Below, piece by piece: positions 30,075-36,434 of a DNA stretch of 52,043 nucleotides; the stretch's first letter is position 1, and each line of letters starts with the position of its first letter. Source of the stretch: Waterburya agarophytonicola KI4 (GTDB lineage Bacteria > Cyanobacteriota > Cyanobacteriia > Cyanobacteriales > Xenococcaceae); assembly GCF_020640915.1 (NCBI RefSeq), contig NZ_JADWDC010000031.1:1-52043 (forward strand), written 5' to 3'. The notes beneath the pieces were generated by a model. The model saw only the letters and a list, made by a program, of their open reading frames with translations. It ran no database searches and was not told the DNA's origin. Both the position numbers and the translations under genes were made by a program.

Positions 30075-30411
30075 TTGATAATAAACAATTAATTACAATC
30101 AAAACTTTCAACTTGTGATAAGTTCCTCAATATTGGGAAACTTTTTATTTTATTTGCTCTCTCAAAATTCGAGTTAATAGTTAATAACTTAAAAATCAAA
30201 GTAATTTGCCCGATCTTTATTTCAGCTTCATTCAAAGATCGGTGTCTTCACTAATTTACACTCCTCAATTTTTCCAACTATATTGGGACAGTAATAGTAT
30301 AAATGGCGACAATTATAAGCAATTTCAAACTCTTTTTATTTGGCTTATCTGAATAACTCCCATAAATACTAAAAATATTTTTAGTTTTATATACAAAAAA
30401 CTTTGCTCAAT
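30075..30411. promoter_or_regulatory. Upstream region of the PilW-like gene, with a 9-bp hairpin
   Basis: These 337 bases carry no supported gene. A perfect hairpin has arms 30210-30218 and 30234-30242 (CCGATCTTT/AAAGATCGG) with a 15-base loop. It could end ribD transcription, although no U-tract follows. I looked for a CRP-type TGTGA-N6-TCACA site, since SYCRP1 controls minor-pilin genes in Synechocystis, and did not find one. Confidence 0.4.
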
Positions 30412-31911
30412 ATGAAAAATAAAGAGTTTCACAAACTTTTAAAAAAAAATAAATCTAATTCCAATTCTAATTCTGGTTTTACTTTAACCGAGCTACTTGT
30501 TGGCTTGTTTATGAGTATTTTTGTAGTTGGTGCATTAGGTTTTGGTCTAATGCAGCTATTAAGAACTACTAGAGTAGAAACTTCTAAAGTAGAAGTGAGG
30601 GGTGAAACTTCTCGTGCTTTAGATTTTATCTCCGATGAAGTTAGACGAGCAAGAACAATTGAGACAGATGATACCAATGCAGGTACGGGTTTTGATAGTA
30701 TTACTGGTGAGACTGTCGTTCTAGCATTAGATATTCCCGAAATAAGTGATGCTGCAAGTGCTGGTGTAACAGGAAGAGTTGTTTATTACCTTAAATCAAC
30801 TAATTTAGGCAACTGGCAAGGGCCTCAAGTACTATACAGATGGGGGCCTCCTCTTGACGCAAATGGAGATTATAATATTGCTGGTGCATGGCAAGAAGAA
30901 GCTTTAATCGATGGTATTGATGATACAAATATTGCAGCAGATCCTTGTGTTGGCGATACTCTAGTTCCAGCATTAGGAACAGCAAGTGGTTTTTATGCTT
31001 GTATTAATGGTGCCAATAATACAGCGCAACTGTATTTAACTGGAGAAACCAAAACGGCTGGTGGAACTGATACCTACACAGCAAACACTAAAGTAGTTGC
31101 AAGGGCAAGAACAGCTCCTGCGGGTACTACTAGCAGTTTCACTTCTTATACAATGAGCTATAAATCATTAGGTGCTGTATATAATTGCAATCCTGCTAAT
31201 AATACACTCTGGAGCATGAGAAGTGTTTTTGAGGTTGGTGGCGATGAAAAATCGTGGATTCACCAAGATGGCAGACAACCTCAACCGATTCAAATTGATA
31301 CATCCACTAGTAATTCTTTAAAGGTTACTACGATTCCCGTTAAACCAGTCGATTCAACAGGAAATCCTTTGACAGGAACACCTGGAGTTGATTATGACTG
31401 TATGAGTAGAGGAAGTGAAGCAGCAGATGGAACTGAGCCTTTGGCTGACTATGCTGATGCTACGCAATTTCCTAATTTCCATAGCGTCCCCTTTACTATA
31501 AGTTTTACGGGGCCTAATTATTGGAGATCTTTTAATGGCAACGAGCCTGGAGATAACGATCCTAGTGACGATCCAATTTGGGTGACTGATGATAATGGCA
31601 ATCAAACAATTTTAATGCTTAAAGAAGGTTCGATAATTCCTGCCAGTTTGACTGGATATGATTTTAACAATGACACCATAGAGGATCAAGATTCTTTAGG
31701 TAAATTCTTGGCTACAGCACCAAATAACTACGCAGTACCAGTAAACCCTTCCGATCTTTCTCAGGGCTATAGAGTCACTGGGCTTGAGCCAGACGAGCGC
31801 ATCATGGCTGTTGAGGTTGGTCATAATGCTAGTGGTGTCCCAGGATTTGATGTTCAAGATAGCGTGGTTATTCTCGCCAGCGATCTATTTGCTCAAGATC
31901 ATTCAAATTAA
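30412..31911 (+). CDS. PilW/GspJ-like prepilin-type protein
   Basis: The 499-residue product has a class III prepilin signal: a basic leader, then SG|FTLTELLVGLFMSIFVVGA, with the cleavage Gly at about residue 22 and Glu at +5 of the mature protein. The hydrophobic helix runs directly into a helical stem (SRALDFISDEVRRARTIE), a pattern of PilW/GspJ-type minor pseudopilins. The very large remaining domain (about residues 95-499) is rich in N, T, D and G, with two or three cysteine pairs, and I do not recognise it. It should be processed by PilD and built into a pilus or pseudopilus tip. The start is the ATG at 30412. It ends 1 base from the stop of a convergent pseudopilin gene. Confidence 0.8.
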   Translation: MKNKEFHKLLKKNKSNSNSNSGFTLTELLVGLFMSIFVVGALGFGLMQLLRTTRVETSKVEVRGETSRALDFISDEVRRARTIETDDTNAGTGFDSITGETVVLALDIPEISDAASAGVTGRVVYYLKSTNLGNWQGPQVLYRWGPPLDANGDYNIAGAWQEEALIDGIDDTNIAADPCVGDTLVPALGTASGFYACINGANNTAQLYLTGETKTAGGTDTYTANTKVVARARTAPAGTTSSFTSYTMSYKSLGAVYNCNPANNTLWSMRSVFEVGGDEKSWIHQDGRQPQPIQIDTSTSNSLKVTTIPVKPVDSTGNPLTGTPGVDYDCMSRGSEAADGTEPLADYADATQFPNFHSVPFTISFTGPNYWRSFNGNEPGDNDPSDDPIWVTDDNGNQTILMLKEGSIIPASLTGYDFNNDTIEDQDSLGKFLATAPNNYAVPVNPSDLSQGYRVTGLEPDERIMAVEVGHNASGVPGFDVQDSVVILASDLFAQDHSN

Positions 31912-31912
31912 A

Positions 31913-32425
31913 TCAATCAATTCTTTGACAATAGGTAGCAGATACAGAACCAGTATTGCTACCTGTATATGTTCCTATTCTAGTAATACCTGTACCAAGA
32001 GCTATTACAAAACATTTTTGCAGATCTGTATTTTCGCTCGATAATACGATAGTTCCCATTTTAGTAGTATTTCCTTTGTGGGAAAAAGAAATATTAGGTG
32101 TAGCACCAGGAATATTGGTTCTAATTTGTATTTCGTCTCTAATTTGGCGATTTTGTAATAAACAATTGTTAGGATTTCCTGTCAAAGTATTGGTATTAAC
32201 GCCAATATTAATTCGACAAGATATTCCTCTAAACATCGCTTGTCTTTGTGTTTCTTTGATACCACCCACAAGAGTTGATAAAGATTGATTAACTCGGTAA
32301 CGATTTAATAATCCCAAAACATTAGGGGTCGCTAAAGCAGCGATAATACCAATAATAACTGAAACGATCGCGAGTTCTACCAGAGTAAAACCGCGATCGC
32401 TTTTTTTTTGAGAGTTAGTAAACAT
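31913..32425 (-). CDS. FimT/GspH-like prepilin-type protein
   Basis: The 170-residue minor pseudopilin has an ideal prepilin signal: leader MFTNSQKKSDR, cleavage after Gly12, mature FTLVELAIVSVIIGIIAALA with Glu at +5. The stem LLNRYRVNQSLSTLVGGIKETQRQAMFRG and the following strand-rich C-domain (SCRINIGVN, then SFSHKGNTTKMGTIVLSS) are typical of GspH/FimT proteins. Conserved cysteines suggest a disulfide near the C-terminus. It is last in a minus-strand run of four pseudopilin genes, 52 bases after its upstream neighbour. Its stop lies 1 base from that of the convergent PilW-like gene. Confidence 0.85.
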   Translation of the reverse strand: MFTNSQKKSDRGFTLVELAIVSVIIGIIAALATPNVLGLLNRYRVNQSLSTLVGGIKETQRQAMFRGISCRINIGVNTNTLTGNPNNCLLQNRQIRDEIQIRTNIPGATPNISFSHKGNTTKMGTIVLSSENTDLQKCFVIALGTGITRIGTYTGSNTGSVSATYCQRID

Positions 32426-32477
32426 TGATAAATTTTAAGCTATGGGACAAAAAAGCTAGTTTTTAAGGGAGTTGGAG

Positions 32478-32948
32478 TTAATTTCTAGTTACACAGTTTC
32501 CGCCGTTCATGTCGCCAGTCCTCATGATTCCCAAACCAGTAGCCACTGTCAAACATCTATCTACGTTAGCATTATTATCTAAAGAAACTCTAACGGTAAT
32601 ACCATTACTGGTATTGCCTTTTCCAGAAAAAATAATAGTTTGATCTCCATTAGGAAGACTAACAGGAGCTTGAAAAACTCGATTTCTGATCAAACAAGTT
32701 CCTGAGACAGTTCTGGTAGCTGCAATGATATTTAAGGTACAACTTTGTCCATTTCTGATCGCTAGTTTTTGCGCTTCTTTAATTGCGCCTTCTATTTCGC
32801 CCAAGGCAGAATTAGCTTGATTGCGATTGAGCATACCCAAAACATTAGGAACAGCAAGGGCAGCAACTATACTTAAAATAGCTGTCACAGCAATCATTTC
32901 TATGAGGGTAAAGCCTCGATCTAGTTTACGGACATTGAAGGGCAGCAT
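32478..32948 (-). CDS. Second FimT/GspH-like prepilin-type protein
   Basis: This 156-residue paralogue of the next gene has leader MLPFNVRKLDR, cleavage after Gly12 and mature FTLIEMIAVTAILSIVAALA with Glu at +5. The stem contains NQANSALGEIEGAIKEAQKLAIRNG. The C-domain has TLNIIAATRTVSGTCLI, FSGKGNTSNGITVRVSL and the ending CLTVATGLGIMRTGDMNGGNC. The phrase SGKGNTSNG parallels SHKGNTTKMG in the neighbour, so the two arose by duplication. Its start overlaps the end of the PilV-like gene by 23 bases, indicating a common transcript. Confidence 0.85.
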   Translation of the reverse strand: MLPFNVRKLDRGFTLIEMIAVTAILSIVAALAVPNVLGMLNRNQANSALGEIEGAIKEAQKLAIRNGQSCTLNIIAATRTVSGTCLIRNRVFQAPVSLPNGDQTIIFSGKGNTSNGITVRVSLDNNANVDRCLTVATGLGIMRTGDMNGGNCVTRN

Positions 32949-33513
32949 CGGGTATTATCTCCACATAAGTTTCTGCAATAGGTTCGTCGGTAGCAGTCAG
33001 TGCTGCACCAACGCGATTTACATAAGCACCATTCCAATCCCAAACTTGATATCCAACCTTTAGGGTTCTATGGGGTGCAGCACTGTTATTTGCCGTGCCA
33101 CTGATATGAAAACGTTGCAAAGCTAGCTGTTTGCCATTTGTATCAAATGAGCCATCATCTTGGTCTATATTTTCCAACACATTCTTAGTTTGCACGCCTG
33201 CGGGAAGAGCAGCCCACAATGCTTGAGCAAAGCTATTGGCATATACTGTGGCATCGCAGGTTGGTGCTGCACCTGCTGCTCCTTCAACTAATGTACTGCC
33301 CAATTCATTAAGACGTTCGATGTCTTCTTGGATCAGCTGATTCGCTCTTTGCTTTTCTTGCGCCTGAACTTTGATTGCCATAGCACCTACCAAAAATTGT
33401 AGGGACAAAATGACAAATCCAGTCGCTGTCAATAAAGCGACTAGTACCTCTAGAGTCACAAACCCTTGTTCTGGTTTATTTGCGCTCGATTTTAGTTTAA
33501 ATAATTTTTTCAT
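32926..33513 (-). CDS. PilV/GspI-like prepilin-type protein
   Basis: The 195-residue product has a leader ending PEQG, with cleavage after Gly17. The mature start is FVTLEVLVALLTATGFVILSL (written to +21), with Glu at +5. The helix continues as QEKQRANQLIQEDIERLNEL, as in PilV/GspI-type minor pseudopilins that help start pilus assembly. The C-domain is about 110 residues, with VGYQVWDWNGAYVNRVG near its middle. It lies 6 bases after the PilX-like gene and overlaps the next FimT-like gene by 23 bases, so translational coupling is likely. Confidence 0.85.
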   Translation of the reverse strand: MKKLFKLKSSANKPEQGFVTLEVLVALLTATGFVILSLQFLVGAMAIKVQAQEKQRANQLIQEDIERLNELGSTLVEGAAGAAPTCDATVYANSFAQALWAALPAGVQTKNVLENIDQDDGSFDTNGKQLALQRFHISGTANNSAAPHRTLKVGYQVWDWNGAYVNRVGAALTATDEPIAETYVEIIPDAALQCP

Positions 33514-33519
33514 AGCAGT

Positions 33520-34941
33520 TTAGTTGAACTCTTCTGTTCTCCAATTAGATGGTCTTTCTGTGATAGGCTTAGGAGTTCTATTAGTGGTTGTGGTGTAGAA
33601 CTTGTAAGCTCTATCTGAAGCTGAAGAACTTATACTGCTGAGGTCTGGAGTGATATTGACAGTAGCACTATTATTAATAAAATCATTTACCCATACAGAG
33701 CCATTGATTGTTACAGTACCCGATCCGTTAATAGTTAGAGTGCTTTCGGGTGCATGAATAAAGGCATCAATAGTAACATCATTACCTCCCGTATTTATCG
33801 TAATGGCTTGACCATTATCAACATAAATTTCAAAATAATTAGAAGCGGCATTACTACCAATATTTATACCTCCCGCAGGAGCATTGATATTGAGAGTTCC
33901 GTCGATATACATTGTTACCCTGGCAATACCATCCGCCTTAACATCATTGTTAAATGTTTGACCGCCAAGATTGTAATAGTAGCGACAGTCTCGAATATCT
34001 GCACAGTCTACGCTTTGATTGAAATTAGCTCCTGCCCACGTTTCAGTATAAGGTAGCTCACTAGTCGAACCTACTATTTCACTTGCAGTATTGACTGTAG
34101 TGTTGACTTGACCTCCTGCACTAGTGATCGTGTCAATTATAGGTTGAATAGAAGGAATACCACGAGCATCACTGATAATAGGCAACCCCGTTGCGGTAGC
34201 TAAAGTTGCAAAATCTCCACATCCATCAGCTTCACTTCCAGATGTAGTGACGGCAGTATCTTGAATCACAATATTGCCATTGTTTACAGTTAAAGTACCC
34301 AAATCTGCGCTGGTTACTGTGTCGTCTCCAACCCACAAAGCAGGGGCAAGATTATCCATATCGCTAGTATTGATACGAATTGGTATATCCACAACTATCT
34401 GGGCATTTCCCTGCCCATCTGGAGTTGTTCCTCTAACTGTTAAAATACCAGTCGCAGGATTACCACTAACTGGATCGTTATTAGCAGCATCACTGGTTAC
34501 ATCAAAATTGGCAGCACCAACATAATCATAAGAAACTAACTGATAAGACCCTGGAATAAAAGTATCAGTTGTATCTCCATCATTATTTAGTTCTAAACCG
34601 TCTTCTGCTAGAGTAATATCATTAGATTGACCTTCAAAAAAGTTCGCAATATTACCTTCGCAAAGCTCACCTATCCCCGTCCATGCGGTTGAATCGTTTA
34701 TTGCTAAAATTCTATTTTTATCCAGTAATTCTCTATATCGAGTAACACCTATTTCGGCGATCGCCAGCGCATCAGAACGAGAATTCTGAGTCAAAGCATT
34801 TAATTTTTCTTCATTGGCACTTGTCAGATTTATCGTACCTAACAAAGTCATGACCAAACCCAAGCCAATTACTAATGGCAGGGTAAAACCTTCATCTCTA
34901 GCACGACGCTGCAATAGAACTCTATACAATAACAGTTTCAT
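33520..34941 (-). CDS. PilX/GspK-like prepilin-type protein with beta-repeat domain
   Basis: The 473-residue product has a leader MKLLLYRVLLQRRARDEG, cleavage after Gly18, and mature FTLPLVIGLGLVMTLLGTIN. Position +5 is Leu, not Glu. Lack of Glu5 is the mark of GspK/PilX-type subunits that sit at the very tip. The first domain (SRSDALAIAEIGVTRYRELLD) fits this group. A central and C-terminal region is rich in short N-, T- and I-rich strands (DGTLNINAPAGGINIGSN, then TLTINGSGTVTINGSVWVND), resembling a beta-helical or DUF7305-type domain. It is the first gene of the four-gene minus-strand operon. A relation to the hormogonium HpsA-type proteins is possible. Confidence 0.78.
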   Translation of the reverse strand: MKLLLYRVLLQRRARDEGFTLPLVIGLGLVMTLLGTINLTSANEEKLNALTQNSRSDALAIAEIGVTRYRELLDKNRILAINDSTAWTGIGELCEGNIANFFEGQSNDITLAEDGLELNNDGDTTDTFIPGSYQLVSYDYVGAANFDVTSDAANNDPVSGNPATGILTVRGTTPDGQGNAQIVVDIPIRINTSDMDNLAPALWVGDDTVTSADLGTLTVNNGNIVIQDTAVTTSGSEADGCGDFATLATATGLPIISDARGIPSIQPIIDTITSAGGQVNTTVNTASEIVGSTSELPYTETWAGANFNQSVDCADIRDCRYYYNLGGQTFNNDVKADGIARVTMYIDGTLNINAPAGGINIGSNAASNYFEIYVDNGQAITINTGGNDVTIDAFIHAPESTLTINGSGTVTINGSVWVNDFINNSATVNITPDLSSISSSASDRAYKFYTTTTNRTPKPITERPSNWRTEEFN

Positions 34942-35078
34942 ATAAAACTAAAACTTAGAAAAATATATTAACCAGGTAAAAAATACCTCGCCATAAGTAT
35001 TACTTAGAGTACCCAAAACAACTGCGATCGCGATCGTTGACAGTCAAAAAAAAAGACGAGATTATTATTAATAAAAAA

Positions 35079-35102
35079 GCGATCGCTTTGTAAGGCGATC
35101 GC
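35079..35102 (-). terminator. HIP1-pair terminator after the expansin gene
   Basis: Two GCGATCGC octamers (35079-35086, 35095-35102) pair around an 8-base loop. On the minus strand the stem is followed by a T6 run. It lies 34 bases after the expansin stop and should also isolate the pseudopilin operon promoter. Confidence 0.75.
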
Positions 35103-35135
35103 CAATATTGTCCAACTATAAATCTTTTCTTGGGA

Positions 35136-36173
35136 TTAAATTAGAGAAAATTGTTGCCCCGTAACAATATCAGCACTGCTACCGTTAGCAATATCAATAT
35201 CGTATAGAGTAACTTGTTGACCAAAGATATCCGTCACTAACAAATCTTGCGCTCCGTATATAGCACCATTTTCAATCGTAAAACGATTATCACTACCCCG
35301 TTTTAGAGGTACTGTACCCCCACCTTCGGTAAGTAAATCGATACTTTCAATAGGATAGCGATGATTGTTGAGTCTAACCGCCCCATACCAAGGATTTGAT
35401 TCAGGAATTCCTTCTGCTACAATTCCTTGACCGATAGTATAGCCGTAAGGGGTTTGAAAATCATCCCCAGGACCAATCAACTCATAATCAATATTGACTA
35501 CACCATCCACAGGATCGGCCACTCTAGCAAAAGCTTCCGCACTAAGATCTAAACCGTCTGCACGTTCGTATAACAAGTCTGATACCTGAACTACGATGGG
35601 TGCAGCACCTTCTCTTTGTCTTGGACCAGAGACTAATAGAAATGCACCGCTAGCTGACGAACCATTCCACTGGATGTTGTTAATCGCGGTAATTCCAGCC
35701 AAATTTCCATAAGGAATATCATAGCCAGAATTACCTCTACCACCAGTGGGATTAGCTGCATCATAAAAAGTGGCTCGTCCTTGATAGCTTTGACCCAACG
35801 ATAAATCAGAACCTATATTGGGATTAGAGAAACTATAAATGCTGTCATAGCTACTAGGACTGTCAAATGTAGATCCATCTATCTCAAAGTTCTGTGGAGT
35901 ATTATTACTGCCATTACTAACAAAGTTAATTGTAATGGTCTCTCCTGATTTGATTTCACGATTCCAAGATTCGTGTTTAATGGTATAGCTTCCATTATCA
36001 TTGCCGATAATTTGAGCGTCCCAGATACCAGTAATTTCATTAGCTAGATCGAATTCTAGATCCCAACTATCTAAGTTGCGATCGCCATTATTGGTAATAT
36101 ATATTTCTCCCTCAAAACCATTTCCCCAGTCTTTGACCGAGGAATAGTTTACGTTGATAGATTCATTCGGCAT
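35136..36173 (-). CDS. CBM2 - expansin (EXLX1-like) two-domain cell-wall protein
   Basis: Expansins loosen cellulose networks without hydrolysis. Residues about 1-100 form a CBM2-type beta-sandwich (VKDWGNGFEGEIYITNNGD, then SWNREIKSGETITINF; conserved W, G and N). A serine-rich linker follows. Residues about 129-230 are the double-psi barrel D1, with YQGRATFYD, then GGRGNSGY where expansins have GGNCGY, and the catalytic-region match VVQVSDLLYERADGLDLS, whose Asp corresponds to the essential Asp of EXLX1. Residues about 231-345 are domain D2 with NPWYGAVRLNNHRYPIESID. The usual D1 cysteines are missing. No signal peptide is present: the protein starts directly in the CBM, and a TAA lies three codons upstream in frame. 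The route out of the cell is unclear. Confidence 0.83.
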   Translation of the reverse strand: MPNESINVNYSSVKDWGNGFEGEIYITNNGDRNLDSWDLEFDLANEITGIWDAQIIGNDNGSYTIKHESWNREIKSGETITINFVSNGSNNTPQNFEIDGSTFDSPSSYDSIYSFSNPNIGSDLSLGQSYQGRATFYDAANPTGGRGNSGYDIPYGNLAGITAINNIQWNGSSASGAFLLVSGPRQREGAAPIVVQVSDLLYERADGLDLSAEAFARVADPVDGVVNIDYELIGPGDDFQTPYGYTIGQGIVAEGIPESNPWYGAVRLNNHRYPIESIDLLTEGGGTVPLKRGSDNRFTIENGAIYGAQDLLVTDIFGQQVTLYDIDIANGSSADIVTGQQFSLI

Positions 36174-36434
36174 TATTGATTAAAACTCCCAGAGAGAATT
36201 AGCCGATATACCTCTAAAAACTTAAGTAACGGCCAAGTAACTTCAAGTCTTTAGTAGCGGATCGAGTATTTCTTCGTATTTGTTTAACTTTTGACGAAAT
36301 TGATTTTATCAGAGATATGTAATTTTACGTAAACTTTCTCTTTAAAAAAATAGTTAAATCAAATGTAATAATAGGGAATTACTGAGATATTTGCCAGAAT
36401 AAAATTATTTTGCTGATTATGACTTGAGAATCTT
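36174..36434. promoter_or_regulatory. Gap between the orphan gene and the expansin gene
   Basis: Both flanking genes are on the minus strand. The gap must contain the expansin promoter. The sequence AAGTAAC occurs twice near 36223-36242, spaced 10 bases apart, and may be a direct-repeat operator. Nothing else stands out. Confidence 0.3.

Follow-up and report, generated by a model that had tools for sequence, protein, structure and literature searches.

In the parts of the literature cited here, microbial expansins figure chiefly as the tools of microbes that live with plants or degrade biomass (PMC11040781, PMC7729394, PMC5072189). The portion of PMC11040781 consulted names W125, W126, Y157 and K119 as binding residues that are conserved and deems D71, Y73 and D82 essential. 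The Y73A substitution renders EXLX1 inactive, and Clavibacter 4JJO carries a cysteine at position 73 (PMC5072189, cited in part), so that Y73 is not strictly defining for the EXLX1 family. All such positions follow EXLX1 numbering, which was checked.

Here we analyse an expansin gene of the cyanobacterium Waterburya agarophytonicola KI4, carried on a stretch of 52,043 nucleotides (contig NZ_JADWDC010000031.1) that we refer to as the window. Its product hints at a loosening of cellulose by pleurocapsa-type cyanobacteria, whether in their own envelope or on their surroundings. A literature search showed no paper on a cyanobacterial expansin among the matches listed, although novelty in print is not thereby established.

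The CBM2-expansin gene and its product

The gene lies on the minus strand, which the initial annotation of this DNA did not specify, with its ATG at 36173-36171 and its stop codon at 35138-35136, giving a product of 345 amino acids. The features of the locus are as follows.

35136..36173, minus strand: CBM2-expansin gene, 345 aa, computed pI 4.05, no cysteine, no signal peptide
35871..36155, minus strand: CBM2 domain (residues 7-101), PF00553 5e-17
35148..35780, minus strand: expansin D1+D2 (residues 132-342), NF041144 104.6 bits, cut-off 100
35400..35429, minus strand: D2 insertion of 10 residues (249-258), in 18/18 clade members, 0/13 actinobacterial rows shown and not EXLX1
36180..36182, minus strand: in-frame TAA three codons 5' of the ATG, read from the sequence
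36186..36190, minus strand: GGGAG, ribosome-binding-site-like, GGAG kept in 4/4 aligned rows
36194..36275, minus strand: conserved 5' leader hairpin, 27 model pairs, before four CBM2-expansin and three expansin-only genes
35078..35103, minus strand: terminator-like hairpin 3' of the stop codon, built from GCGATCGC-type repeats, from a consensus scan only

The initial annotation had read the gene as a CBM2 followed by both expansin domains, and the profile searches that it suggested agree, the CBM2 and expansin models both scoring above cut-off. In the Pfam scan PF00553 (CBM2) matches residues 7-101 with 62.5 bits (E 5e-17, gathering cut-off 24), while NF041144, the NCBIfam EXLX1 expansin model, matches residues 132-342 with 104.6 bits against a curated cut-off of 100 and is covered from position 1 to 193 of 194, so that both D1 and D2 are present. 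The NCBI pipeline would probably name the protein an expansin EXLX1 family protein. Pfam is weak on D1, where PF03330 (DPBB_1) reaches 16.9 bits, below its cut-off of 28.8; the scan of the window protein lists nothing for D2, and a weak CBM49 match of 16.5 bits is also below its cut-off. Comparison with PDB chains by phmmer returned 9ms5 (8.5e-18), 7wvr (2.9e-10) and Bacillus EXLX1 (2bh0, 1.9e-9), the significant matches being the expansin chains 9ms5, 9ms4, 7wvr, 2bh0, 4jcw and 4js7 together with CBM2 proteins. A clade profile of 12 rows found 2bh0 at 1.2e-14 and the plant beta-expansin 2hcz at 2e-4. The stretches VSDLLYER and NHRYP, earlier singled out as EXLX1-like, align with TDLYPEG and NHKYP of EXLX1. 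Judged by homology, the window protein and its clade are expansins that differ from characterised expansins at three sites. The binding face of CBM2 domains carries surface tryptophans, and Trp16, Trp51 and Trp70 were counted in the window CBM2 by eye, in the sequence and not on a structure.

The N-terminus of the window protein, MPNESINVNYSSVKDW, passes straight into the CBM2. The TAA three codons upstream is in frame at 36180-36182, as had been noted, and excludes an upstream in-frame signal peptide; together with the lack of a hydrophobic N-terminus this upholds the earlier statement that a signal peptide is missing.

Distribution and phylogeny

The NF041144 cut-off is passed at 17 loci in 13 of the 27 genomes of the window's GTDB family, and these loci form, with one further locus in a MAG (L090), the coherent cyanobacterial clade of 18 members that is newly described here. 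Among 386 genomes drawn over the phylum only the window's own passes the cut-off, and 36 others give weaker NF041144 matches (E <= 0.001) that cover the model in part only and look to us like RlpA-type D1 domains; the control genome of B. subtilis was recovered in the searches of both phylum and family. At E <= 1e-15 the clade profile again finds the own genome alone in the phylum sample (386 genomes) and 15 of 388 genomes in a sample of the order, namely those 13 and two of another family (f15). The family is thus patchy and is not found in most cyanobacteria; presence in most of them was what the initial annotation had named as speaking against its reading. Another copy in the window's genome (G000:C29) is 66% identical and bears two CBM2 domains. 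At L063 7289-7555 (G007:C1:4743291-4743437) an 88-aa frame contains an isolated C-terminal fragment of an expansin, apparently the remnant of a second copy.

A scan of GTDB 220 with two patterns, in which 80 of 195 confirmed stretches were kept and other phyla may be missed, gave these named cyanobacterial members: an uncultured Pleurocapsa, Pleurocapsa sp. CCALA 161, Hyellaceae cyanobacterium CSU_1_1 (two loci), Xenococcus sp. MO_188.B8, Hyella patelloides LEGE 07179 and a MAG labelled Pseudanabaenales (56%). The other 73 of the 80 kept loci carry actinobacterial names, at 29-35% identity. The presence of a clade member, L090, in the MAG labelled Pseudanabaenales, and so named for another order, may reflect transfer or a mis-binned 8.1-kb contig.

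In a gene tree of bacterial expansins, as the initial annotation had proposed, the 18 members cohere on one side of a branch with support 100/99 against 25 actinobacterial rows; with 9ms5 added, the 18 members and two f15 proteins (L258, L259) share one side (97/91). The stem branch of the clade is long, at 1.56-1.84 changes per column. These trees hold 25 of the 73 actinobacterial loci, the other sources being two PDB fragments only and EXLX1 a long-branch row; Streptomyces matches served as comparators and Clavibacter plasmid matches were left out. The pattern fits a single acquisition by cyanobacteria and later remodelling within one family, with donors outside Actinomycetota hardly sampled. 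Like the initial annotation we infer horizontal transfer, which fits the distribution and the long stem, but neither donor nor direction is shown by them.

Key residues and selection

D71 and D82, which correspond to Asp199 and Asp209 of the window protein, are retained in each of the 18 clade members, so that a loss of the catalytic aspartate, which the initial annotation would have taken as a refutation, is not seen in the alignment. Position 73 is leucine in 17 members and methionine in one, never tyrosine; position 119 is T, S, R, E or Q, never lysine; and position 157 holds aspartate (16/18) or histidine (2/18) instead of tyrosine. The D2 aromatics are better preserved, with W/Y at position 125 in 17 of the 18 (Asn in L049) and Y/W at position 126 in every member, the pair being Trp262 and Tyr263 in the window protein. 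Ten extra residues stand ahead of position 122 throughout the clade, in none of the 13 actinobacterial rows shown and not in EXLX1. Because K119 and Y157 are absent, we file the protein as an expansin-domain variant and not as a proven functional expansin.

The dN/dS ratio is 0.077-0.133 in each of eight close pairs, and versions that consist of the expansin part without a CBM2 (L055, L057, L060) are under the same selection. Purifying selection of this kind marks a working protein and not a relic; the values in these eight pairs do not look like decay, and on them a reading as a pseudogene was rejected. The combination of D71 and D82 kept, Tyr73, Lys119 and Tyr157 lost and an insertion in D2, all under purifying selection, is new here; nature has in this way already set up an experiment that can tell which residues are needed for loosening.

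Domain architectures, GH9 fusions and a proposed mechanism

Within the clade a single CBM2 precedes the expansin part in the window protein, L048, L049, L050 and L058. Two CBM2 domains precede it in L047, L051, L052, L053, L054, L056 and L059, an assignment made by Pfam scan for L047 and by two PF00553 matches in the frame for the other six. The expansin part stands alone, in proteins of 243 aa, at L055, L057 and L060. Two members are fused to GH9 cellulases: L061 joins a nucleoside-hydrolase-like domain, GH9 and the expansin part, and L090 joins GH9, CBM2 and the expansin part. The two f15 proteins (L258, 3669-7550, 1294 aa; L259, 3755-7657, 1301 aa) run CBM2, two Calx-beta, expansin, two Calx-beta and GH9; they lack a signal peptide, and their canonical expansin scores 240-241 bits with NF041144, contains four cysteines and has K119- and Y157-like residues as read by eye. 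Such expansin fusions with GH9 cellulases are a new element here; a search of titles and abstracts showed no GH9-expansin chain among the matches listed, which is not proof of absence. GH9 matches occur in 23 of the 27 family genomes, two of them in the window's own, and among ten proteins scanned a leading CBM2 is found with GH5 (L197), PL14 (L203) and beta-helix domains (L200, L202). The CBM2-first order stressed in the initial annotation is real, but as an order it is not new, an N-terminal CBM2 being described for CmiEXLX2 of Clavibacter (PMC11040781, cited in part).

Cellulose is the likely target of the CBM2-expansin, as CBM2, D2 and the fused GH9 all point there, and the link to cellulose drawn earlier gains from the CBM2 and the GH9 fusions alike. 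We consider it probable that the protein is an exported, CBM2-anchored, non-lytic loosener of cellulose that works beside GH9 cellulases. The N-terminal CBM2 would anchor the protein on cellulose, the expansin part would sit on the glucan via Trp262 and Tyr263 of D2, and the D1 aspartate pair (Asp199 = D71, Asp209 = D82) would work to loosen chains and leave them uncut. The loosened chains could then be cut by GH9 cellulases, which are encoded at other places in the genome or, in some relatives, fused to the same expansin. Within this scheme the domains, the residues kept and lost, the selection, the fusions and the distribution are shown, whereas we infer non-Sec export, cellulose as the substrate and the loosening activity.

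The absence of Tyr73, Lys119 and Tyr157 in all 18 members is evidence against an active loosener and suits a former expansin that no longer loosens and now serves only for targeting or adhesion, as a second domain that binds glucan and holds cells or GH9 enzymes on cellulose. The conserved D2 insertion, the long stem (1.56-1.84 changes per column), the doubling of the CBM2 in one subgroup and the fusion to GH9 also speak for such a module. A pure binder would not need D71 and D82, however, which 18 of 18 members keep, and the expansin-only versions L055, L057 and L060 are under the same selection without any CBM2 beside them. We regard loss of the loosening function as unlikely.

A conserved 5' leader hairpin

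The DNA 5' of four CBM2-expansin genes (the window gene, L048, L049 and L050) is most conserved close to the gene and contains GTTACTTGGCCGTT. In each of the four it folds as a long hairpin, with modest z values of -1.0 to -2.1. A covariance model built from these leaders detected a further three (E 8e-8 to 6.5e-10), all of them immediately 5' of expansin-only genes. The hairpins are located as follows.

Before CBM2-expansin genes: window 36194-36275 (minus strand); L048 2582-2662; L049 10324-10405; L050 10525-10605
Before expansin-only genes: L055 9922-10000; L057 4163-4244; L060 10370-10450

In a search of 68 sources the model places the leader in these seven, always before an expansin gene, with additional reverse-strand matches at four of these places and one line at E 9.1; none was found before the copies with two CBM2 domains, L058, L061, L062, L090 or other enzymes. 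The leader ties the CBM2-expansin and expansin-only genes into one orthologous group, and its conservation before seven orthologues is a new observation.

In a structure-independent alignment pairing holds in 87.3% of cells, and both sides change in 12 cells, values that in either case none of 500 shuffles reached, whereas alignments slid out of register pair at 30-44%. The number of pairs with a both-sided change (40/500 shuffles as high) and the number of pair types (143/500) are less telling; the covariation rests on seven sequences, of which three break several pairs, and two of five measures are not clearly above shuffles. Several of its pairs are G-U, which favours a leader that would act as RNA over a DNA dyad, and it is possible that it serves as a gene-specific RNA regulator. 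No Rfam family matched up to E 1. A wider regulon was also considered and set aside, the core pattern (<= 3 mismatches) occurring once in the own genome and a backward control twice.

Signal peptides, cysteines and export

N-termini were assessed by an 11-residue hydrophobicity scan, which is not a trained predictor. The window protein scores -0.17. Of the 15 relatives whose ATG can be read, 14 score -0.13 to 0.95; the fifteenth, L061, reaches 2.18 within a stretch that belongs to its nucleoside-hydrolase motif, and its first 12 residues contain no K/R. From the ATG there is no cysteine in the window protein, the 15 relatives or L090, nor in the frame of L062, which is incomplete at its 5' end. 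Actinobacterial expansins score at least 2.2 in 73 of 73 cases, taken as the best of all possible starts, and their expansin part has six cysteines in 72 and four in one. The loss of the D1 cysteines proposed in the initial annotation therefore holds against the actinobacterial proteins, but it does not set the window protein apart from EXLX1, which also has none over residues 25-182.

The comparison was extended to 33 of the 52 GH9 matches of the family (L165-L176, L234, L262-L281), in which five CBM2 stretches served as phmmer queries to judge the presence of CBM2: 14 have a CBM2 (three left-cut, L167, L168 and L279, and one right-cut, L169), 18 have neither CBM2 nor expansin, and the 33rd is the L061 fusion. 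Thirteen of the 14 CBM2-bearing GH9s lack a hydrophobic N-terminus at the first ATG (-0.13 to 1.35) and have 0-1 cysteines, L264 having a signal-peptide-like start (1.83) and three cysteines. By comparison, 17 of the 18 GH9s with neither domain have hydrophobic N-termini (2.0-3.6) and 0-5 cysteines; in L272, which has no hydrophobic start, the first ATG lies 111 codons into the frame. Neither trait is strict, given L264 and the signal-bearing L262 and L263 with 0-1 cysteines. Scores of 1.55 or less were found for the CBM2-led GH5, PL14 and beta-helix proteins (L197, L203, L200, L202). The missing signal peptide is a feature of the CBM2-bearing set, a pattern that is likewise new here.

A similar make-up is seen in 13 RTX-bearing frames of the own genome (of 139 PF00353 matches), which have no signal peptide and six cysteines in 11,393 aa, against a baseline of 116 in 10,139 aa for 20 hand-picked window proteins. 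HlyB-type ABC exporters are encoded in the same genome, L235 scoring over and L236 under the TIGR01846 cut-off. Type I secretion was proposed because the RTX proteins share the signal-less, cysteine-poor make-up and such exporters are present, and the window protein fits these cargo traits. RTX repeats (PF00353) were not found in it, the Pfam scan listing CBM_2, DPBB_1 and CBM49 only. An HMM of RTX C-termini of the own genome, built from 10 of the 13 frames after L243, L246 and the 219-aa frame of L247 had been left out on inspection because their ends looked different, placed no expansin C-terminus above background among its best 60 lines; type I secretion via an RTX-like C-terminal signal was rejected since the expansin C-termini are not recognised, and it is kept only as a candidate route.

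A cytoplasmic protein with an unrelated role would account for the missing signal peptides of the window protein, of L090 and of all 15 relatives whose start can be read, as well as for the lack of an RTX-type C-terminus among the best 60 lines of the HMM. To our knowledge, however, CBM2, GH9 and expansin domains have no cytoplasmic substrate. The CBM2-bearing GH9s, moreover, share the signal-less, cysteine-poor make-up of the RTX proteins, and signal-less exoproteins are documented in cyanobacteria, HesF of Anabaena being a TolC-dependent example (PMC4390845, cited in part). A cytoplasmic role thus appears very improbable. The contrast within one family between signal-less CBM2-bearing GH9s and signal-bearing GH9s without CBM2 points to an unexplained export route.

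Genomic context and the likely substrate

A conserved operon or partner gene was sought at the 18 loci and rejected: neighbours in common were seen chiefly at the loci of close relatives, and no gene accompanies the expansin as a rule. The only recurring neighbour of the window expansin is a 473-aa gene, found again at L048 alone. A pilin-like gene cluster adjoins the expansin at 30403-34941 of the window, with N-methylation-type N-termini by eye, an N_methyl match of 16.2 bits, under cut-off, in 30403-31908 and DUF7305 in 33523-34941. The reading frame at 34-651 carries NLPNYTLEGIEYYG-type repeats that by eye resemble the C-terminus of the RTX-bearing L246 of the same genome.

Two GT2-PilZ proteins of the own genome have TIGR03030 (cellulose synthase) as their best model, at 459 and 441 bits, below the cut-off of 699. 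All 27 family genomes match this model at E <= 0.001 and none passes its cut-off; co-occurrence with the expansin was therefore discarded as a guide, and the cellulose-synthase-like matches do not point to the expansin because they are present with and without it. We nevertheless lean slightly towards the cell's own matrix over foreign cellulose as the substrate, since the own genome encodes the two cellulose-synthase-like proteins. The cyanobacterial sheath must open at baeocyte release. In Hyella the cells are enclosed by sheaths that are firm or multilayered (PMC7381351, cited in part). The sheath of Hyella disjuncta stained blue, the colour of acid mucopolysaccharide and not of cellulose (PMC8472315, cited in part). 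This argues against cellulose in the sheath of that strain and is the reason why the preference is only slight.

The protein may instead be a tool for foreign cellulose, aiding cellulases on the seaweed, plant litter or microalgae that host pleurocapsalean cyanobacteria, a reading that concerns the substrate and overlaps with that of an exported loosener. The CBM2-led GH9, GH5 and PL14 proteins of the family (ten proteins scanned) are consistent with it. So are the endoglucanase, beta-glucosidase and xylanase reported for Waterburya, a pleurocapsalean symbiont of seaweed (PMC8580901), and the use of other bacterial expansins on plants (PMC7729394; both sources cited in part). We hold use on foreign cellulose to be a real but tentative possibility.

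The most specific proposal that we would draw is a pleurocapsalean set of signal-less, cysteine-poor CBM2 proteins on an undescribed export route, including a remodelled expansin under control of the leader hairpin that would loosen the cellulose of the cell's own envelope at growth or baeocyte release. Taken in all its parts this is quite unlikely; if true, it would be an endogenous wall-loosening expansin in a bacterium. A selected and restricted clade in phototrophs that may make cellulose would allow the action of expansins on a bacterium's own matrix to be tested.

Comparison with known expansin systems

Neither an expansin preceded by a CBM2 nor a cysteine-free expansin stretch is new. 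CmiEXLX2 of Clavibacter (CBM2-D1-D2) shares with the window protein a CBM2 joined to a two-domain expansin (PMC11040781), and the CelA-type chain of the same genus carries GH5, CBM2 and expansin in one polypeptide, with the cellulase co-resident as in L061 and L090 (PMC7729394, PMC5072189; all three sources cited in part). The GH9-CBM2-expansin chain parallels this GH5-CBM2-expansin chain with a different cellulase. Compared with the Clavibacter CBM2-expansins as described in those excerpts, the cyanobacterial clade lacks a signal peptide and its fused cellulase is GH9 and not GH5. The EXLX proteins selected in PMC11040781 keep Y73, K119 and Y157 in the part of that study cited, whereas the cyanobacterial clade does not.

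EXLX1 (YoaJ) of Bacillus subtilis (2bh0) has in common with the window protein D1 and D2, D71 and D82, the aromatics at 125/126 and the lack of cysteine over residues 25-182; the window protein differs in having no Y73, K119 or Y157 and in its 10-residue D2 insertion and CBM2. The nearest named non-cyanobacterial relatives among the 80 of 195 kept loci are actinobacterial EXLX1-family proteins (Streptomyces, Lentzea and others; L092-L164), which, unlike the clade, have a signal-peptide-like N-terminus in 73 of 73 cases and 4-6 cysteines, with no D2 insertion in the 13 rows shown. The f15 proteins L258 and L259 resemble the clade in their leading CBM2, the missing signal peptide and their side of the tree (97/91), but depart from it in an NF041144 score of 240-241 bits, four cysteines and K119- and Y157-like residues by eye.
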